In this document: piece after piece, positions 3,583 to 13,043 of the stretch
Layout of the letters: each line of letters starts with the position of its first letter
Position numbering within the stretch: the stretch's first letter is position 1
Source: a virus
Reading direction: 5' to 3' (one strand)
IMG/VR virus record: IMGVR_UViG_3300037493_000502
Coordinates: 1 to 22,563 of that record
Length of the DNA stretch: 22,563 nt
The notes under the pieces: generated by a model
Seen by the model: the letters and a program-made list of their open reading frames with translations, nothing else
Told to the model about the DNA's origin: nothing
Database searches by the model: none
Made by a program: the position numbers and the translations under genes

Positions 3583-5958
3583 TTAAATTGTTGCATTATT
3601 TATTCTATTCCTTTCGAGTGCTTGGGCGCTTGTCATTTCAGAACTCACAACATACGCTTGTACGGGTTTTTGTTGTAATTGCGCTAATTGATTCATTCCG
3701 TTATTTCCAACTACGTTAAATTGGGGTGCTTGGACTGCACCGCCACCACCACCACCGCCACTACTTGCGCTTGGTTCTGCACCGCCTTCAAACTGAGATT
3801 CTTTTATTTTCTTGATATTCATTAAACCCATTGCAATTGCTCCCGCACTTGCTAAAGGCGCTAATACTGGTCCGACAACGGGAACGCCTATAACCGACTT
3901 ATAAGCACTTTGAGCGCTTACAAACGTGTCAATTGTTGCACTTGCTATATTAGTAGCTTTTTGAATATTAAACGCTCGTTTTTGACTTGCTTTACTTTTA
4001 CCTGCAAATAGTTCGGCTATGTTTGCAATTGAAGATAAACCGCCTTTAACTGCGTCTAATTGTGAATTTAATAATTCTTGTTTTTTGTTTTTTGCGTCTT
4101 CGTCTAACTTCGCAATTTCTACATTTGTTTTTTCGGTTAATGCTTTTTTAGCCGTTTCGTATTGTTCTTGAGTTAATAATTTTAAATCATAATCGCTTGT
4201 CAACTTTGCTAAATCCGCAATCGCTTTTTCGTCTATTGCTTGACGTGCTAATTCTTCTTCGCTTAAAACAATTAAATTATAATTCTTTATGGCTTCAATT
4301 TCTTTTTGCCTTTGTGCTTCTTTGATTGCTTCAGCTTCGGCTAAATATTTTGCGTCAATTGCTTTTAGCGCTTCTTGGTGTTCAATTGTTAGTTTTTCTA
4401 TATCCGTTGCCAATAAACTTTCAGCGTCGAATTTTTGCATTAAAACTAATTTTTCATAGTCTTGTTTACTTAAATCAATTTCTTGTTGTTTTAGCCAGTC
4501 TTCGTCTTCTTTTTTTATTCGGTCTTGAGTGTATTTGTCCCGTATTTTTTGTTCGTCTATTCCTTGTTGAATAACATCTTGTGCTAATAATTCGTCGGCT
4601 TGTTTCTTTTTAACTGTTTTTTCTTTTACTTGCTTTTCTAAATCTAATTTTTTACGCTCGTATTGAACACGAATTAATTCAAGTTCTTTTTCTTGTCCGT
4701 CTGCTAACGCTTTTAATTTTGAATCTTCTATTTCACGTGAAATATCTTTAACTTCTTTAACTGATTTTTTTGCATCATTTGATTTTTGTTTTGCTTGGTC
4801 TCTTGACGCTTTTGCGTGTTCGGCTTCTAAAATTGCTAAATCGTTAACTGCATCTTTATAACTTTCATTCGCAACTCTATTTTCTTCAATTATTTTGTTT
4901 TCTTTTTCATTTAATTTTGCTAATTCTTCTTTTGCGACGGCTATCTGAACACTACCGAACGTTTCTTTGTTTTGTTCCAAATATTGAATATAAAATTCAG
5001 CACTCGCTTTTTGTTGCGCTTGTGTTGCTTTTACTGATTTATATTGTGCGGCAGTATCGTTTACAAGACTTTTTTGAAAAGAAATTGACGCCTTTATTCT
5101 GGCGCGTTCTAATTCATAGGTGTCTTTTCCTTGTGCTTTTAATAGAGCAATCTGGCGCCCCATTGCATCGTCTTCTTTTGTGTATGATTTTAATTTTTTT
5201 GCATTTGCTTTTTCAAAGGCTACAATTTGTTCGTCTAAAGCTTTTGTTTTTGCTTCGGCAATTTCCTTTGATTTGTTATTAGCTTCGTCTTCGGCAAAAC
5301 TTGTTAATCCAATCCAATCGCCAAAATCTTTTAATAATTGTATAGCACCACTTATGGGTGTCATTAACATTTCAAAATTTGCAATTAATAAACCAACCCC
5401 AACAACTAAAGCGCCTATACCCGTTCCAATCATTGCAAGTCTAAACAACTTCATTGCGCCAGTTGAAGCTCCAACAACTGCGGAATAAACGCCCGTTGCT
5501 ACGCTTAAAGCCGTTGTTTTTACGGCATCAACTCCCTTCATAAATGCGCTTTCCTTTTGCAACGCTATTTGAACTTGTTGAACTCCATTCGCCAAAGCCA
5601 TTGCGCTTTGTACTTTTAGCATTGTTTTTTGTAAGTTTTCGTTTTCAGAACCTACCAAACCCATTGCACCTTGAACCGCTTCGAATCCACCCGTTACCGC
5701 ACTTAGTCCGCCTAAAGCCATATCAACTTTTCCCGTGTCGGACGCAAAGTTTTTAACTTGTTGGTTTAAGTCTCCAATTTTGTCTTGTAACTTACCCGCT
5801 TCAGCAACTAATTCTTTAAAACCTTCCGAACCTTCGTCCATCGTTCCAAGTTGCTCCTTCATTTCCTTAAGTTGTTGCTTAAGGGTTTTCGTTTTTTCCG
5901 TTACTTGGTCGAATCCACTTTCTTTTACTTCGAGTTCAATTGTTCGTTTTTCAGCCAT
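3583..5958 (-). CDS. Tail tape measure protein
   Basis: 791 aa. The N-terminus is coiled coil (TEKTKTLKQQLKEMKEQLG). Residues 80-170 are Ala/Gly/Val-rich helical, and about 174-195 form a strongly hydrophobic segment (IGTGIGALVVGVGLLIANF). About 220-640 are long charged coiled coils rich in Lys, Glu and Ala. A Gly/Ser stretch lies near 735, before a short C-terminal domain. This architecture (long helical rod plus central hydrophobic segment) is typical of tape measure proteins, which set tail length and sit inside the tube. At about 1.5 angstrom per residue the tail would be near 120 nm, an estimate from family rules. Its start overlaps the preceding 51-aa gene by one base (TAATG), indicating coupling. 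It lies directly before the prohead protease, not after the tail chaperones. Confidence 0.88.
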   Translation of the reverse strand: MAEKRTIELEVKESGFDQVTEKTKTLKQQLKEMKEQLGTMDEGSEGFKELVAEAGKLQDKIGDLNQQVKNFASDTGKVDMALGGLSAVTGGFEAVQGAMGLVGSENENLQKTMLKVQSAMALANGVQQVQIALQKESAFMKGVDAVKTTALSVATGVYSAVVGASTGAMKLFRLAMIGTGIGALVVGVGLLIANFEMLMTPISGAIQLLKDFGDWIGLTSFAEDEANNKSKEIAEAKTKALDEQIVAFEKANAKKLKSYTKEDDAMGRQIALLKAQGKDTYELERARIKASISFQKSLVNDTAAQYKSVKATQAQQKASAEFYIQYLEQNKETFGSVQIAVAKEELAKLNEKENKIIEENRVANESYKDAVNDLAILEAEHAKASRDQAKQKSNDAKKSVKEVKDISREIEDSKLKALADGQEKELELIRVQYERKKLDLEKQVKEKTVKKKQADELLAQDVIQQGIDEQKIRDKYTQDRIKKEDEDWLKQQEIDLSKQDYEKLVLMQKFDAESLLATDIEKLTIEHQEALKAIDAKYLAEAEAIKEAQRQKEIEAIKNYNLIVLSEEELARQAIDEKAIADLAKLTSDYDLKLLTQEQYETAKKALTEKTNVEIAKLDEDAKNKKQELLNSQLDAVKGGLSSIANIAELFAGKSKASQKRAFNIQKATNIASATIDTFVSAQSAYKSVIGVPVVGPVLAPLASAGAIAMGLMNIKKIKESQFEGGAEPSASSGGGGGGGAVQAPQFNVVGNNGMNQLAQLQQKPVQAYVVSSEMTSAQALERNRINNATI

Positions 5959-9945: not shown

Positions 9946-10488
9946 CTATATGTTTTTAAAATTTTCTTCCATTATTGTATTAAATGTTTCTTCAGCTTCT
10001 AAGCCGTATGCTTCAATCATTTCGTCGGGTAAATTCTTAAATGCTTTTTCGAAAGGTGTGGTAAAAAATAAACTCCTTGATATACCTTGTCTAAAAACAC
10101 TTTCGCGAACTGCAAACGGACTTAACCCCTTTGAATTTGCCCATTGTGTAAAATGCTTGACGCTTGGTTTGTTTCCTATCTTAAAACTAAACGGACTGCC
10201 TTTTCCTTTTTGTTTCCACATTTTACCCTTGTTGTCCGTCTTTTTGAATTTGCTTGTTGTTGACCTTACGCCCCCCGCACCCATAACCCCTTGGTCTTGA
10301 TAAAATCCGTATTCTTCCATATCAAAATAAAGACGCAAAGAATTTGGCATAACTTTTATTTCGCCAGTAATGGAATCGTAAAGTTTGCGGGTGTGGTTCT
10401 TTTTTAACTTGCTTAAATTGCTTCGTGCTTGTTGTATAACGTAGTCCCTAAAATTTTCAAGAATTATTTGTTGTTCGTCTTTTTCCAT
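9946..10488 (-). CDS. Head-tail joining or tail-completion-like protein
   Basis: 180 aa. The N-terminus is helical and charged, residues about 30-60 hold beta strands (KLYDSITGEIKVMPNSLRLY), and a basic Gly/Lys-rich loop follows (RSTTSKFKKTDNKGKMWKQK). The segment RESVFRQGISRSLFFTTPFEKAFKNL near 128-153 resembles the C-terminal helix region of HK97 gp10-like neck/tail completion proteins. It lies next to a tail-terminator-like gene, as gp10-type genes usually do. The function is inferred from this order and from the mixed alpha/beta shape. Spacing is one base after the upstream gene and two bases before the next, so it is part of the tail operon. Confidence 0.5.
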   Translation of the reverse strand: MEKDEQQIILENFRDYVIQQARSNLSKLKKNHTRKLYDSITGEIKVMPNSLRLYFDMEEYGFYQDQGVMGAGGVRSTTSKFKKTDNKGKMWKQKGKGSPFSFKIGNKPSVKHFTQWANSKGLSPFAVRESVFRQGISRSLFFTTPFEKAFKNLPDEMIEAYGLEAEETFNTIMEENFKNI

Positions 10489-10489
10489 T

Positions 10490-10945
10490 TTAACAAATTG
10501 TCATTTCGTTTGGAACTAAAACGTCAAATGTCATCGTCCAACCGCTTAACAAGTTTTCGAATCGTTCCGTAAATGGTTCGCAATTTGGGTTTCCGTCAAT
10601 CTGGAATAAATCATAAGCTAAACTCCCGTGTAACATAATATCATAGGCTCGGTTTAAGATAGCTAAAGTTGAGTTTAAAGCGTCTTGTGTATTGTCGTTG
10701 CCTAAATATACGCTCGTGTTTTCCGTCTTCGATATGTCTACTAAATCCATTGCAATTAAAGAAATATTAAACCGCAAAACGTTTACTTCAAACGTACACG
10801 AATTAACCATAATGTGAACAAGTGGAAAAATAGTTTGCTTTGCTAAATCAACTTGGAAAATGTCGCCTTCGCTTACTGAGTTAACCAATGCGTCTGCGTC
10901 AAAGTGTGTTTTAAGTTTGTCTATTGCCGTGTAAAATCCTATCAT
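10490..10945 (-). CDS. Tail-terminator-like structural protein
   Basis: 151 aa. A short helical start (YTAIDKLKTHFDADALVNSV) is followed by strand-rich segments (FPLVHIMVNSCTFEVNVLRF, then WTMTFDVLVPNE) with a helix between them (ALNSTLAILNRAYDIML). The helix plus antiparallel sheet order and the size of about 150 aa match tail terminator or minor tail proteins. The start overlaps the preceding stop (ATGA at 10942-10945), so it is coupled to the frameshift product. I recall close relatives in Flavobacterium phages annotated only as hypothetical. The assignment is moderate at best. Confidence 0.5.
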   Translation of the reverse strand: MIGFYTAIDKLKTHFDADALVNSVSEGDIFQVDLAKQTIFPLVHIMVNSCTFEVNVLRFNISLIAMDLVDISKTENTSVYLGNDNTQDALNSTLAILNRAYDIMLHGSLAYDLFQIDGNPNCEPFTERFENLLSGWTMTFDVLVPNEMTIC

Positions 10946-11214
10946 TTTAAATACTTATTTAATTGTCTTTGTTCTATTTCGTTTTTTTGTTTCTCAAACG
11001 TTAAGTAAGTTAAACATTTAAGTAATCCCATTCGGGTAACTTCGTCAAATTTTGTGACATCTCCTTTAGCGAGCGCATAAATAGATTGATACCATCCCCA
11101 TTGTTTTGAAAATTGTGTTCTTTCGCTAAAGTCTCCAAGACCTTCGGGTTCTTCGCTATCTCTTGTTCTAAATAAACTATCGTAGCCGTTAGTAATTCGC
11201 TTCCTAAATTCCAA
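10942..11214 (-). CDS. -1 frame extension (GT-like) of the tail chaperone-like protein
   Basis: 90 codons open from TTG at 11214-11212, with no ATG start of its own in a usable place. It lies in the -1 frame relative to the gene at 11010-11702 and overlaps that gene's last 205 bases. Its first codon falls exactly at the end of a T TTT TTT slippery heptamer (11220-11214), so it is most likely read as a fusion: 163 residues of the upstream frame plus these 90, total 253. The sequence has QFSKQWGWYQSIYALAKGDV and MGLLKCLTYLTFEKQKNEIE. This Trp/Tyr-Ala-Gly-Asp pattern resembles the T-domain of tail assembly chaperones I recall from Bacteroidota phages. Translation from TTG as a separate protein, or a sequencing error in the T-run, are alternatives. 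Confidence 0.72.
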   Translation of the reverse strand: MEFRKRITNGYDSLFRTRDSEEPEGLGDFSERTQFSKQWGWYQSIYALAKGDVTKFDEVTRMGLLKCLTYLTFEKQKNEIEQRQLNKYLK

Positions 11215-11702
11215 AAAAAAACCGACGAACTTAATACAACTCCGAGTGGTGCGAACTTCATTAAGTCTGAAAATTCAGCCGTTCCAGTATAATCAATTAT
11301 TTCGTGTCCGTCTTTTCGTTTAATCTTAATTGGACGATACATTACCGCCATTGCTTTGTGGTAAGTGTCCCAACTTTTTAAGTTTTCTTCTAAGTCTACA
11401 TATTCGCCAAAACTTATATTTTGTAAGTCGGGAATAAATCCAAACTCCATATCTTTAATTTTAAAAGTAGGTGTAAACTTTGGTGTCTCAGAAAACAATT
11501 TATTAAAGTGAGTAACTAACTTTTGTACTTCAGTATATTTGATATTTATAATTTCTTTTAATTCAATATCGCAAAATATCTGAATCATTTTTTCCGCTAA
11601 CATTTCGTTGTCGGTTGTTGTCTCCTTAACCTTAATAAACTTTTGGTATTGCCCTAAAGTAATTTCGTTTAAGTCTGTTGGAATGGTTAATTCTAATTTC
11701 AT
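11010..11702 (-). CDS. Tail-assembly-chaperone-like protein (G-like, zero-frame product)
   Basis: 230 aa from ATG at 11702. An upstream in-frame ATG at 11741 would overlap the 57-aa gene at 11713-11886, so the internal start MKLELTIPTDLNEITLGQYQ with leader TTAATTATATAAAT is preferred. Residues 1-150 are a helical domain (QKFIKVKETTTDNEMLAEKM, FSETPKFTPTFKIKDMEFG). After residue 163 the frame continues for 67 more codons while the -1 frame carries a different, conserved-looking domain. The pair resembles lambda G and G-T, which shepherd the tape measure during tail assembly and dissociate before the tail is complete. Here it lies about 5 kb upstream of the tape measure, which is unusual, so the functional name is a hypothesis. 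Confidence 0.65.
   Translation of the reverse strand: MKLELTIPTDLNEITLGQYQKFIKVKETTTDNEMLAEKMIQIFCDIELKEIINIKYTEVQKLVTHFNKLFSETPKFTPTFKIKDMEFGFIPDLQNISFGEYVDLEENLKSWDTYHKAMAVMYRPIKIKRKDGHEIIDYTGTAEFSDLMKFAPLGVVLSSSVFFWNLGSELLTATIVYLEQEIAKNPKVLETLAKEHNFQNNGDGINLFMRSLKEMSQNLTKLPEWDYLNV
11214..11220 (-). other. Slippery heptamer T TTT TTT for -1 frameshifting
   Basis: On the minus strand a run of nine T (11221-11213) lies in zero frame as GTT TTT TTT TGG. This gives a canonical X XXY YYZ heptamer, T TTT TTT. A shift of -1 makes the next codon TTG at 11214-11212, which opens the 90-codon downstream frame. The zero frame is open through and beyond the site, so this is not a simple broken gene. 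Nine T could also promote transcriptional slippage. I did not establish a downstream pseudoknot. Confidence 0.72.
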
Positions 11703-11712
11703 ATTTATATAA

Positions 11713-11886
11713 TTAAGTTTTCGTTTTCTTGTTATATGCAACCGCTATTTCGTAAGCGTATAAAAGCATTTCAAAATGCAATACAAATTTCCTTGAATCG
11801 CTCATATTTATTTTAACCCTTACCCCTTTGCGTTGGTAAATGTATTCTTCAACTACGGCAATCATTACGCTAATATCGTTTGTCAT
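11713..11886 (-). CDS. Small protein of unknown function downstream of terminase (57 aa)
   Basis: ATG at 11884-11886 overlaps the terminase stop (ATGA), and TAA lies at 11713-11715, ten bases before the start of the chaperone-like gene. The protein runs MTNDISVMIAVVEEYIYQRK, then GVRVKINMSDSRKF, and ends in a basic tail (NKKTKT). It is a likely helical mini-protein. The exact fit between neighbours and the ATGA coupling make it a real gene. I do not recognise a family. Confidence 0.72.
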   Translation of the reverse strand: MTNDISVMIAVVEEYIYQRKGVRVKINMSDSRKFVLHFEMLLYAYEIAVAYNKKTKT

Positions 11887-13043
11887 CTTATTGCGTATTT
11901 TCCAAAGTTTGCGCTTTTGCCCAATGATTCCATTTCGTGATAACGTAAGGCGTCAATAGTATGGTTAAAGTTGTCTATTGGTTTATTCATTTGTTTGCCC
12001 GTCTTGTCTCTATCCCAACAATAAGCGCGTAACTCCTTTATTAGATTTGTGCTTTGTGCGGTTACTAAATACGATTGACTTTGCATTATTTGAATTCCAA
12101 AATTAACGCTATCTTGTCCCTTTGTAACGCCTTTAATTAGTTGCCCCGTTCTTCTTATTTCCTCGATTGATTTGGGTTCGCTACTATCTGCGTAAGCTAT
12201 TACGTTTTTTTGTAGCTTCTTCGATATTTCGTTATTCACAAGTCCCGTTTGATAAACAATTTCGTTTACTATTCTTTGTCCGTTGTAATTGTATATTTCT
12301 ATTATTGCAGTCGGGTCGTTTGTAAACCCAAAATCTAATCCGTAACCAATTAACTTTGCTTCGTTCGGTATCGTGTCAATCATTTTCCAATTGCTAAAAA
12401 CTACGCCTTCCAACATTCCTATTTCGCCTAAGCCATAAACACGCCACCAATTCGCCCAATAACTACTTGTCGACGCTTTAGAACGATTCTTTTCTATTTC
12501 CTTTACTATTCGTTCGTCGAGTGCTTCGTTGTCCTTATACGTCAAAATTAAGAAATCGGAATCGTCTTCGTGTTTTAGTTCGGTGTGTACCCAAAATTCG
12601 TTCGCTGGGTTAAAGTCTAAATAAATTTCCCGCTTGGTTCTTATTGATAGTTCATTGTATGCTTCAAACGTTACGTTGTTGCATTCGTTTATGTAAAGAA
12701 TGTCCCTTCGCGCTCCCCTTAACTTACTTGAATCGTCTGCGGAAAAAAATTCGATATAACTTCCGTTCCCGAAATCGTATCTTAATAATGATTTGTTAAA
12801 CCGCCCTTCAAAAAAACGGCTTGTCCATTTCATTATGTTTATGAAATCTTTTAACGCTCCCCGTCTTAAGTGCGGTATTGATTCCGCTACTATGCTTATT
12901 TCTAAGTTTGGGGTTTTGGCTGCTTTGCTTATTAATACGGGAATGATTCCAAATGTTTTACCCGCACTTGTTCCGCCTTGTATTATTTTGATTCGTTTTT
13001 TTAACGCTATAATTTTATTAACCGCCGTTGTTCTAACTAACAT
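11883..13043 (-). CDS. Terminase large subunit (packaging ATPase and nuclease)
   Basis: 386 aa, near the usual size for a phage large terminase. Walker A is GGTSAGKT at residues 23-30 and a Walker B-like strand is ILYINE (115-120). The C-terminal RNase H-like nuclease has Asp237 in LDFGF, Asp286 in YADSSEP and Asp364 in HTIDALRY, in the expected order and spacing. The enzyme binds the empty procapsid portal, translocates DNA using ATP and cuts the genome. Its start overlaps the small-terminase-like gene by 11 bases, which fits a small/large subunit pair. It resembles the Terminase_3/Terminase_6 groups of Bacteroidota phages. Complete, with no odd residues. Confidence 0.93.
   Translation of the reverse strand: MLVRTTAVNKIIALKKRIKIIQGGTSAGKTFGIIPVLISKAAKTPNLEISIVAESIPHLRRGALKDFINIMKWTSRFFEGRFNKSLLRYDFGNGSYIEFFSADDSSKLRGARRDILYINECNNVTFEAYNELSIRTKREIYLDFNPANEFWVHTELKHEDDSDFLILTYKDNEALDERIVKEIEKNRSKASTSSYWANWWRVYGLGEIGMLEGVVFSNWKMIDTIPNEAKLIGYGLDFGFTNDPTAIIEIYNYNGQRIVNEIVYQTGLVNNEISKKLQKNVIAYADSSEPKSIEEIRRTGQLIKGVTKGQDSVNFGIQIMQSQSYLVTAQSTNLIKELRAYCWDRDKTGKQMNKPIDNFNHTIDALRYHEMESLGKSANFGKYAIR

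Follow-up and report, generated by a model that had tools for sequence, protein, structure and literature searches.

A conserved run of nine or ten T and predicted −1 frameshifting in a phage gene family adjoining the terminase

Introduction

In several phage genes, a −1 shift yields two products that share a start, and the recorded shifts of such layout in tailed phages are mostly those of tail chaperones (PMC5009743, PMC10885494). In lambda gpG/gpGT, the slip occurs at GGGAAAG at the end of the N-terminal domain and gives rise to a short and a fused product, with an 18-nt overlap of the frames beside the tape measure gene H. Chaperones of this type bind both the tape measure and the tail tube proteins, depend on the ratio of their two forms, and are missing from the virion. 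The P2 pair gpE/gpE+E′ makes its −1 shift at the T-rich site TTTTTTG, with a 20-nt overlap, and likewise adjoins the tape measure gene. The SPP1 pair gp17.5/gp17.5*, which directly precedes the tape measure gene, shifts −1 at UUUUUUC and has 112 aa in common, gp17.5 itself being 173 aa long (PMC6316719). Bacterial cases of transcriptional slippage, such as the A9 run of Thermus dnaX and those of IS elements, have also been described, slippage of this kind being selected against at length nine in many bacteria (PMC1088944).

Here we analyze a gene comparable to each of these systems from a 22,563-nt viral sequence (IMG/VR record IMGVR_UViG_3300037493_000502, positions 1 to 22,563; hereinafter the window). 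Like lambda gpG/gpGT, it has one start, a predicted −1 slip where the N-terminal domain ends, and predicted short and fused products; however, its slip sequence and overlap differ, it lies away from the tape measure gene, and hhalign finds no similarity between the two. With the P2 pair it shares a T-rich slip site and a −1 shift, and it differs from it in the length of the overlap and in its neighbor. The SPP1 zero frame, by its published description, runs 61 codons past the U-rich site, a long overlap as in the window; therefore, long overlaps at U-rich sites are not new, and the first-pass annotation of the window, which had called the overlap unusual, was right with respect to lambda and P2 and wrong with respect to SPP1. 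Unlike the SPP1 genes, the window gene does not directly precede the tape measure gene. In the cultured Nonlabens phages P12024L/S (Inhavirus), gp40 and gp41 (P12024L numbering) represent the same gene family, placed in synteny after the terminase; there, the zero-frame extension is about 25 codons, and the two parts are annotated as separate genes with the frameshift unannotated. Finally, the window gene resembles Thermus dnaX and the IS elements in having a coding-region run of nine A or T, but its site also fits the classical ribosomal heptamer.

Results and discussion

A T9 run at the junction of two reading frames

The minus strand of the window reads ...TCG TCG GTT TTT TTT TGG AAT TTA GGA... 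around the site, with the zero-frame codons GTT (11222-11220), TTT, TTT, and TGG (11213-11211) spanning a run of nine T (11213..11221, minus strand). The run contains T TTT TTT at 11220-11214, which has the X XXY YYZ form of the slip sites of lambda-type tail chaperones. A re-reading of the window upheld all of these coordinates as first annotated. The zero frame extends from an ATG at 11702 to a stop at 11010 (11010..11702, minus strand); its predicted 230-aa product, supported by translation, an alignment of 24 relatives, and AlphaFold modeling, comprises a 163-aa N-terminal domain and an extension of 67 codons beyond F163. In the −1 frame, translation past the T-run gives LEFRKRITNGYDSLF..., with 90 codons ending in a stop at 10942 (10942..11214, minus strand), which would form the C-terminal domain of a 253-aa fusion. 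The two frames overlap for 205 nt (11010..11214, minus strand). The translation of the window accordingly bears out the initial account of the 67 open zero-frame codons past the site, of the overlap, and of the 90-codon −1 frame. The statement that the −1 frame opens exactly at the slip point did not stand, since this frame is already open for 20 codons upstream, from a TGA at 11277-11275, although that stretch is devoid of ATG, GTG, and TTG.

By dinucleotide shuffles of the window (33% GC), 25 matches to A9 would be expected over the two strands, against the three present; A/T runs of at least nine are otherwise depleted in it. A lone T9 in DNA of this composition is not significant by itself, and the significance of the run at 11221-11213, the only one of at least nine in the window made up of T in the coding sense, derives from its conservation across relatives. 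An A9 in the coding sense is seen elsewhere, at 1560-1568 on the minus strand (TCA AAA AAA AAT, in the ORF 1741-1373), where a TAG directly follows in the −1 frame; this might be a dnaX-like truncating slip site.

Conservation of the run in relatives

We fetched an unbiased set of loci with peptide patterns based on either the zero-frame product or the peptide of the −1 frame, the run itself being excluded. Among the nonredundant relatives in this set that have both domains, 156 of 157 show exactly T9 and the −1 relation, and a deeper lineage, reached by a scan seeded with a very divergent member, has T9 in all 21 of its 21 loci. Scans with T8, T9, or T10 patterns, biased by design, served to reach divergent members and were left out of the T9 statistics; the loci from the T8 and T9 scans are those among the matches listed. 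A divergent clade among the listed matches to the T-run patterns carries T10 with the register and the −1 relation unchanged, because its preceding codon is also TTT. Across 314 nonredundant relatives, again among the matches listed, the run is nine or ten T long and never shorter than nine. A tblastn search extended the family to the cultured P12024L/S at 27% identity: P12024L has the T9 followed by ATCATTTAGG, with both frames present. A scan of bacterial genome contigs recovered no relative, and a literature search on flavobacterial phages, covering open-licence papers, found no report of the slippage site. The comparison of homologous loci that the first-pass annotation had proposed thus found the T-run and both frames retained. 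The presence of T9 in the same register across relatives excludes a sequencing error, and the comparison identifies the T-run as a real programmed −1 signal conserved in hundreds of related phages.

Two further observations concern the sequence next to the run. The pentamer TTTAG, four bases past it (11214-11190 in the window, and in relatives), is nearly invariant; it is forced by both frames (x-L-G and F-R) and may also have a separate role. In P12024L, gp41 (L158 4528-4695) is annotated from an internal ATG that lies about 75 nt past the T9 run at which the conserved −1 frame begins.

The sole exception among the 157 unbiased relatives (L118) has T10, which places both domains in one frame; as its near relatives have T9, a single base may have been inserted in this contig. 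A continuous version without slippage is also found in the Flavobacterium phages FPSV-D15 and 23T (Unahavirus, phrog_25418), which code for a 293-aa protein whose N-terminal domain is related to that of the window gene in profile comparisons (E = 0.006). In a Foldseek comparison, the fragment from Flavobacterium phage 6H likewise matched the N-terminal domain (E = 1.9e-5). The common domain order of the FPSV-D15/23T protein and the fusion, and the likeness of their C-terminal parts, were judged by eye; profile searches found no similarity for the C-terminal part. A continuous homologue had been named at the outset as an observation that would refute frameshifting. Such homologues do exist, in L118 and FPSV-D15, and we read them as evidence that the two domains form one chain; the single frame of the FPSV-D15 relatives nevertheless weighs against the account proposed below. 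In 6H (L585), the region ~10350-10400 is 2 nt longer than in relatives, splitting the 293-aa ORF through a mutation or a sequencing error.

Both frames of the overlap are conserved

The two-frame reading of the overlap was assessed from codon-position and synonymous-site rates, a frame-open test, and a closed control frame. Grouped by zero-frame codon position, pairwise differences in the window clade average 0.087/0.055/0.305 before the site, 0.093/0.127/0.118 within the overlap, and 0.032/0.288/0.077 past the zero-frame stop. The free position thus moves from 3 before the site, to none in the overlap, to 2 (the −1 wobble position) after the zero-frame stop, the pattern expected of single, then double, then single coding. 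A similar loss of contrast between positions across the overlap is seen in two other clades, whose post-overlap stretches are too short for use. Fourfold sites behave comparably: in the −1 frame their difference is 0.145 within the overlap versus 0.556 past it, and in the zero frame 0.448 before the site versus 0.086 within the overlap (locus pairs are non-independent, hence no P value is attached to any of these pairwise rates). When the −1 protein was held fixed and its synonymous codons were redrawn at random, the probability of the zero frame staying open across the overlap by chance was P = 0.002 for the window, with a median of 0 over 109 loci. In the relatives, the median open stretch of the third frame, used as a control, is 2 codons versus 67 for the zero frame, and the zero-frame extension is mostly about 25-88 codons long, going down to 16. 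The substitution patterns show that both frames in the overlap are under selection.

The −1 frame is predicted to be expressed as a fusion

The first −1 codon in relatives is TTG, TTA, or TTC, with no conserved start codon, and conservation of the −1 peptide sets in with its very first residues (L-x-F-R-x-R). At its other end, the −1 stop overlaps the start of the next gene (10945-10490) as ATGA (10942..10945, minus strand); this 4-nt overlap, which recurs in 198 of about 264 relatives, suggests translational coupling to that gene. The lack of an early start, taken with the usual ATGA end, argues that the −1 ORF is expressed only as a fusion. The first-pass annotation had proposed products of 230 and 253 aa with a common stretch of 163, and the comparative evidence, namely conservation and substitution patterns, strongly supports the prediction that both are made from one start.

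Two simpler accounts of the locus were considered and rejected. One would have the −1 ORF be a gene with its own start that overlaps the first, as GenBank has it in P12024L, where gp41 begins at an internal ATG; the TTG that about half of the relatives have at the slip point could be taken in the same sense. However, the other half begin the −1 frame with TTA or TTC, and 294 of the 314 relatives (among the matches listed) have no ATG before −1 codon 40, in keeping with the early remark that this frame has no usable ATG, even though the peptide is conserved from its start. Moreover, L118 joins both parts in one frame. An independent −1 gene is thus very improbable, for want of a start codon. 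The other account, in which an indel or a sequencing error in the T-run would have disrupted a gene otherwise in a single frame, could appeal to the error-prone nature of homopolymers and to the continuous T10 version in L118, yet well over 150 relatives, sampled in many metagenomes, keep the exact T9 in register, as does the finished genome of a cultured phage, and both downstream frames are under selection. We regard such an error as scarcely credible, given the conservation in both the unbiased set and the deeper lineage.

Mechanism, function, and gene neighborhood

We propose that most ribosomes would read GTT TTT TTT TGG straight through to make the 230-aa protein, while in a fraction of expression events a −1 shift at the T9 would yield the 253-aa fusion of the shared domain to the 90-aa −1 domain. 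This shift would most likely take place through two tRNA-Phe slipping on the ribosome from UUU UUU to UUU UUU one base back, the classical heptamer allowing perfect re-pairing of both tRNAs. Both proteins would be expected to accumulate, in a fixed ratio that serves tail assembly as in lambda gpG/gpGT, in which the shared domain would coat the tape measure protein, and tail subunits would be recruited by the −1 domain. This account as a whole, a programmed −1 shift setting a gpG/gpGT-like ratio, is in our estimate reasonably likely.

The gene lies in a late structural cluster, with the terminase large subunit (Pfam Terminase_3/Terminase_3C) encoded upstream at 11883..13043 and the tape measure protein (PHROG tail length tape measure, 3e-14) about 5 kb downstream at 3583..5958, both on the minus strand, the latter at the distance first annotated; protease and capsid genes were recognized by eye. 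It thus adjoins the terminase and does not sit between the major tail protein and tape measure genes. AlphaFold models the 230-aa protein at pLDDT 75, with a confident N-terminal domain and a less certain extension. The model of the L118 fusion has a mean pLDDT of 82 with a weak C-terminal domain, the rows of the fused alignment having been chosen for MAFFT alignability, which affects only this structure model. Searches of Pfam, NCBIfam, and PDB, along with hhalign comparison to lambda gpG, found no match to known tail chaperones, and PDB searches by fold and by sequence gave nothing usable. The best fold matches in BFVD are all uncharacterized phage proteins, the first named chaperone coming at E = 0.19 (prob 0.77). 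In 8 of 24 relatives there is a weak match to PHROG 166, a "tail protein", with E = 0.0016 at best. As the recorded −1 shifts of such layout are mostly those of chaperones, we infer a gpG/gpGT-like tail chaperone role, which we hold to be probable. The atypical position and the lack of detected homology are the reasons for not filing the gene in the lambda-type chaperone family. Of the initial description as tail-chaperone-like frames joined by a programmed −1 shift, the joining is therefore sustained by conservation and substitutions, and the family membership is not.

Two alternatives bear on this account, one on the slippage and the other on the role of the products. RNA polymerase might add one U or otherwise alter the length of the run at T9/T10, such that unshifted ribosomes translate a mixed mRNA pool into the same 253-aa fusion, along with short products from the other lengths. 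The site has the uninterrupted, conserved coding-region run of at least nine A/T that such slippage calls for, and nine is the usual length for RNA-polymerase slippage. The run never falls below nine in the 314 relatives (among the matches listed), though a ribosomal heptamer needs seven, and A/T runs of this length are otherwise depleted in the window. In addition, the search for a downstream stimulatory RNA structure suggested by the first-pass annotation gave no signal in 60 relatives and the window, with mean z values of 0.01 and −0.02 for 70-nt windows at +5 and +30, respectively. On the other hand, the T's beyond seven can be accounted for by protein constraints, given the conserved flanking residues (V/L/I/F-F-F-W/Y/S for the zero frame, L/F for the −1 frame). 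For the known tail chaperones, the shift is described as ribosomal (PMC5009743), and we found no reports in the literature of slippage by a Bacteroidota polymerase. On balance, we lean toward a ribosomal shift and consider transcriptional slippage possible but unlikely, with a small remaining weight that includes a combination of both; the more specific proposition that polymerase slippage at an invariant T9-10 sets the two-product ratio of a phage assembly gene is a little more doubtful still. The second alternative retains the programmed shift and has its products serve head completion, the neck, or packaging. The place of the gene after the terminase large subunit, 5 kb from the tape measure gene, and its lack of homology to tail chaperones would fit such a role, but the record of −1 shifts cited above, the weak match to a PHROG tail protein, and the position of the distant continuous homologue in FPSV-D15, which precedes the tape measure gene by about 3 kb, all favor tail assembly, and we judge this second alternative improbable.

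Within the scope of our searches, the new elements are the gene family, the strict T9-T10 run, the wide range of zero-frame extensions, the demonstrated selection on both frames, and the place beside the terminase. Together with the tail assembly role preferred here, these results add a widespread and essentially unannotated frameshifted phage gene family, with hundreds of loci filed in PHROG under "unknown function", and probably name the tail chaperone of this phage group; annotation misses the frameshift, e.g., in P12024L. The strict run of nine or ten T, with no detected RNA stimulator, provides a clean natural system for ribosomal versus transcriptional slippage, and the conserved double coding at known divergence makes a good test bed for overlapping-gene evolution. 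Were RNA polymerase responsible, a large group of phages, both uncultured and flavobacterial, would have conserved its slippage, and double coding would extend up to about 100 codons past the run. Judging from P12024, the hosts may be flavobacterial; in the phylum that is probably theirs, ribosomes work without Shine-Dalgarno pairing (PMC9976891).

The rest of the window holds further points of note. The gene order across 6110-3583 and 3561-1 is unusual in that the capsid genes (by eye, protease-, scaffold-, and capsid-like) come after that of the tape measure protein, and no portal gene was recognized in the window. The neighboring minus-strand genes 2199-1765 and 1741-1373 begin almost identically (MNTLKTIYDK...TELAKHE.ELGLVD.LT) and look like a tandem duplication.
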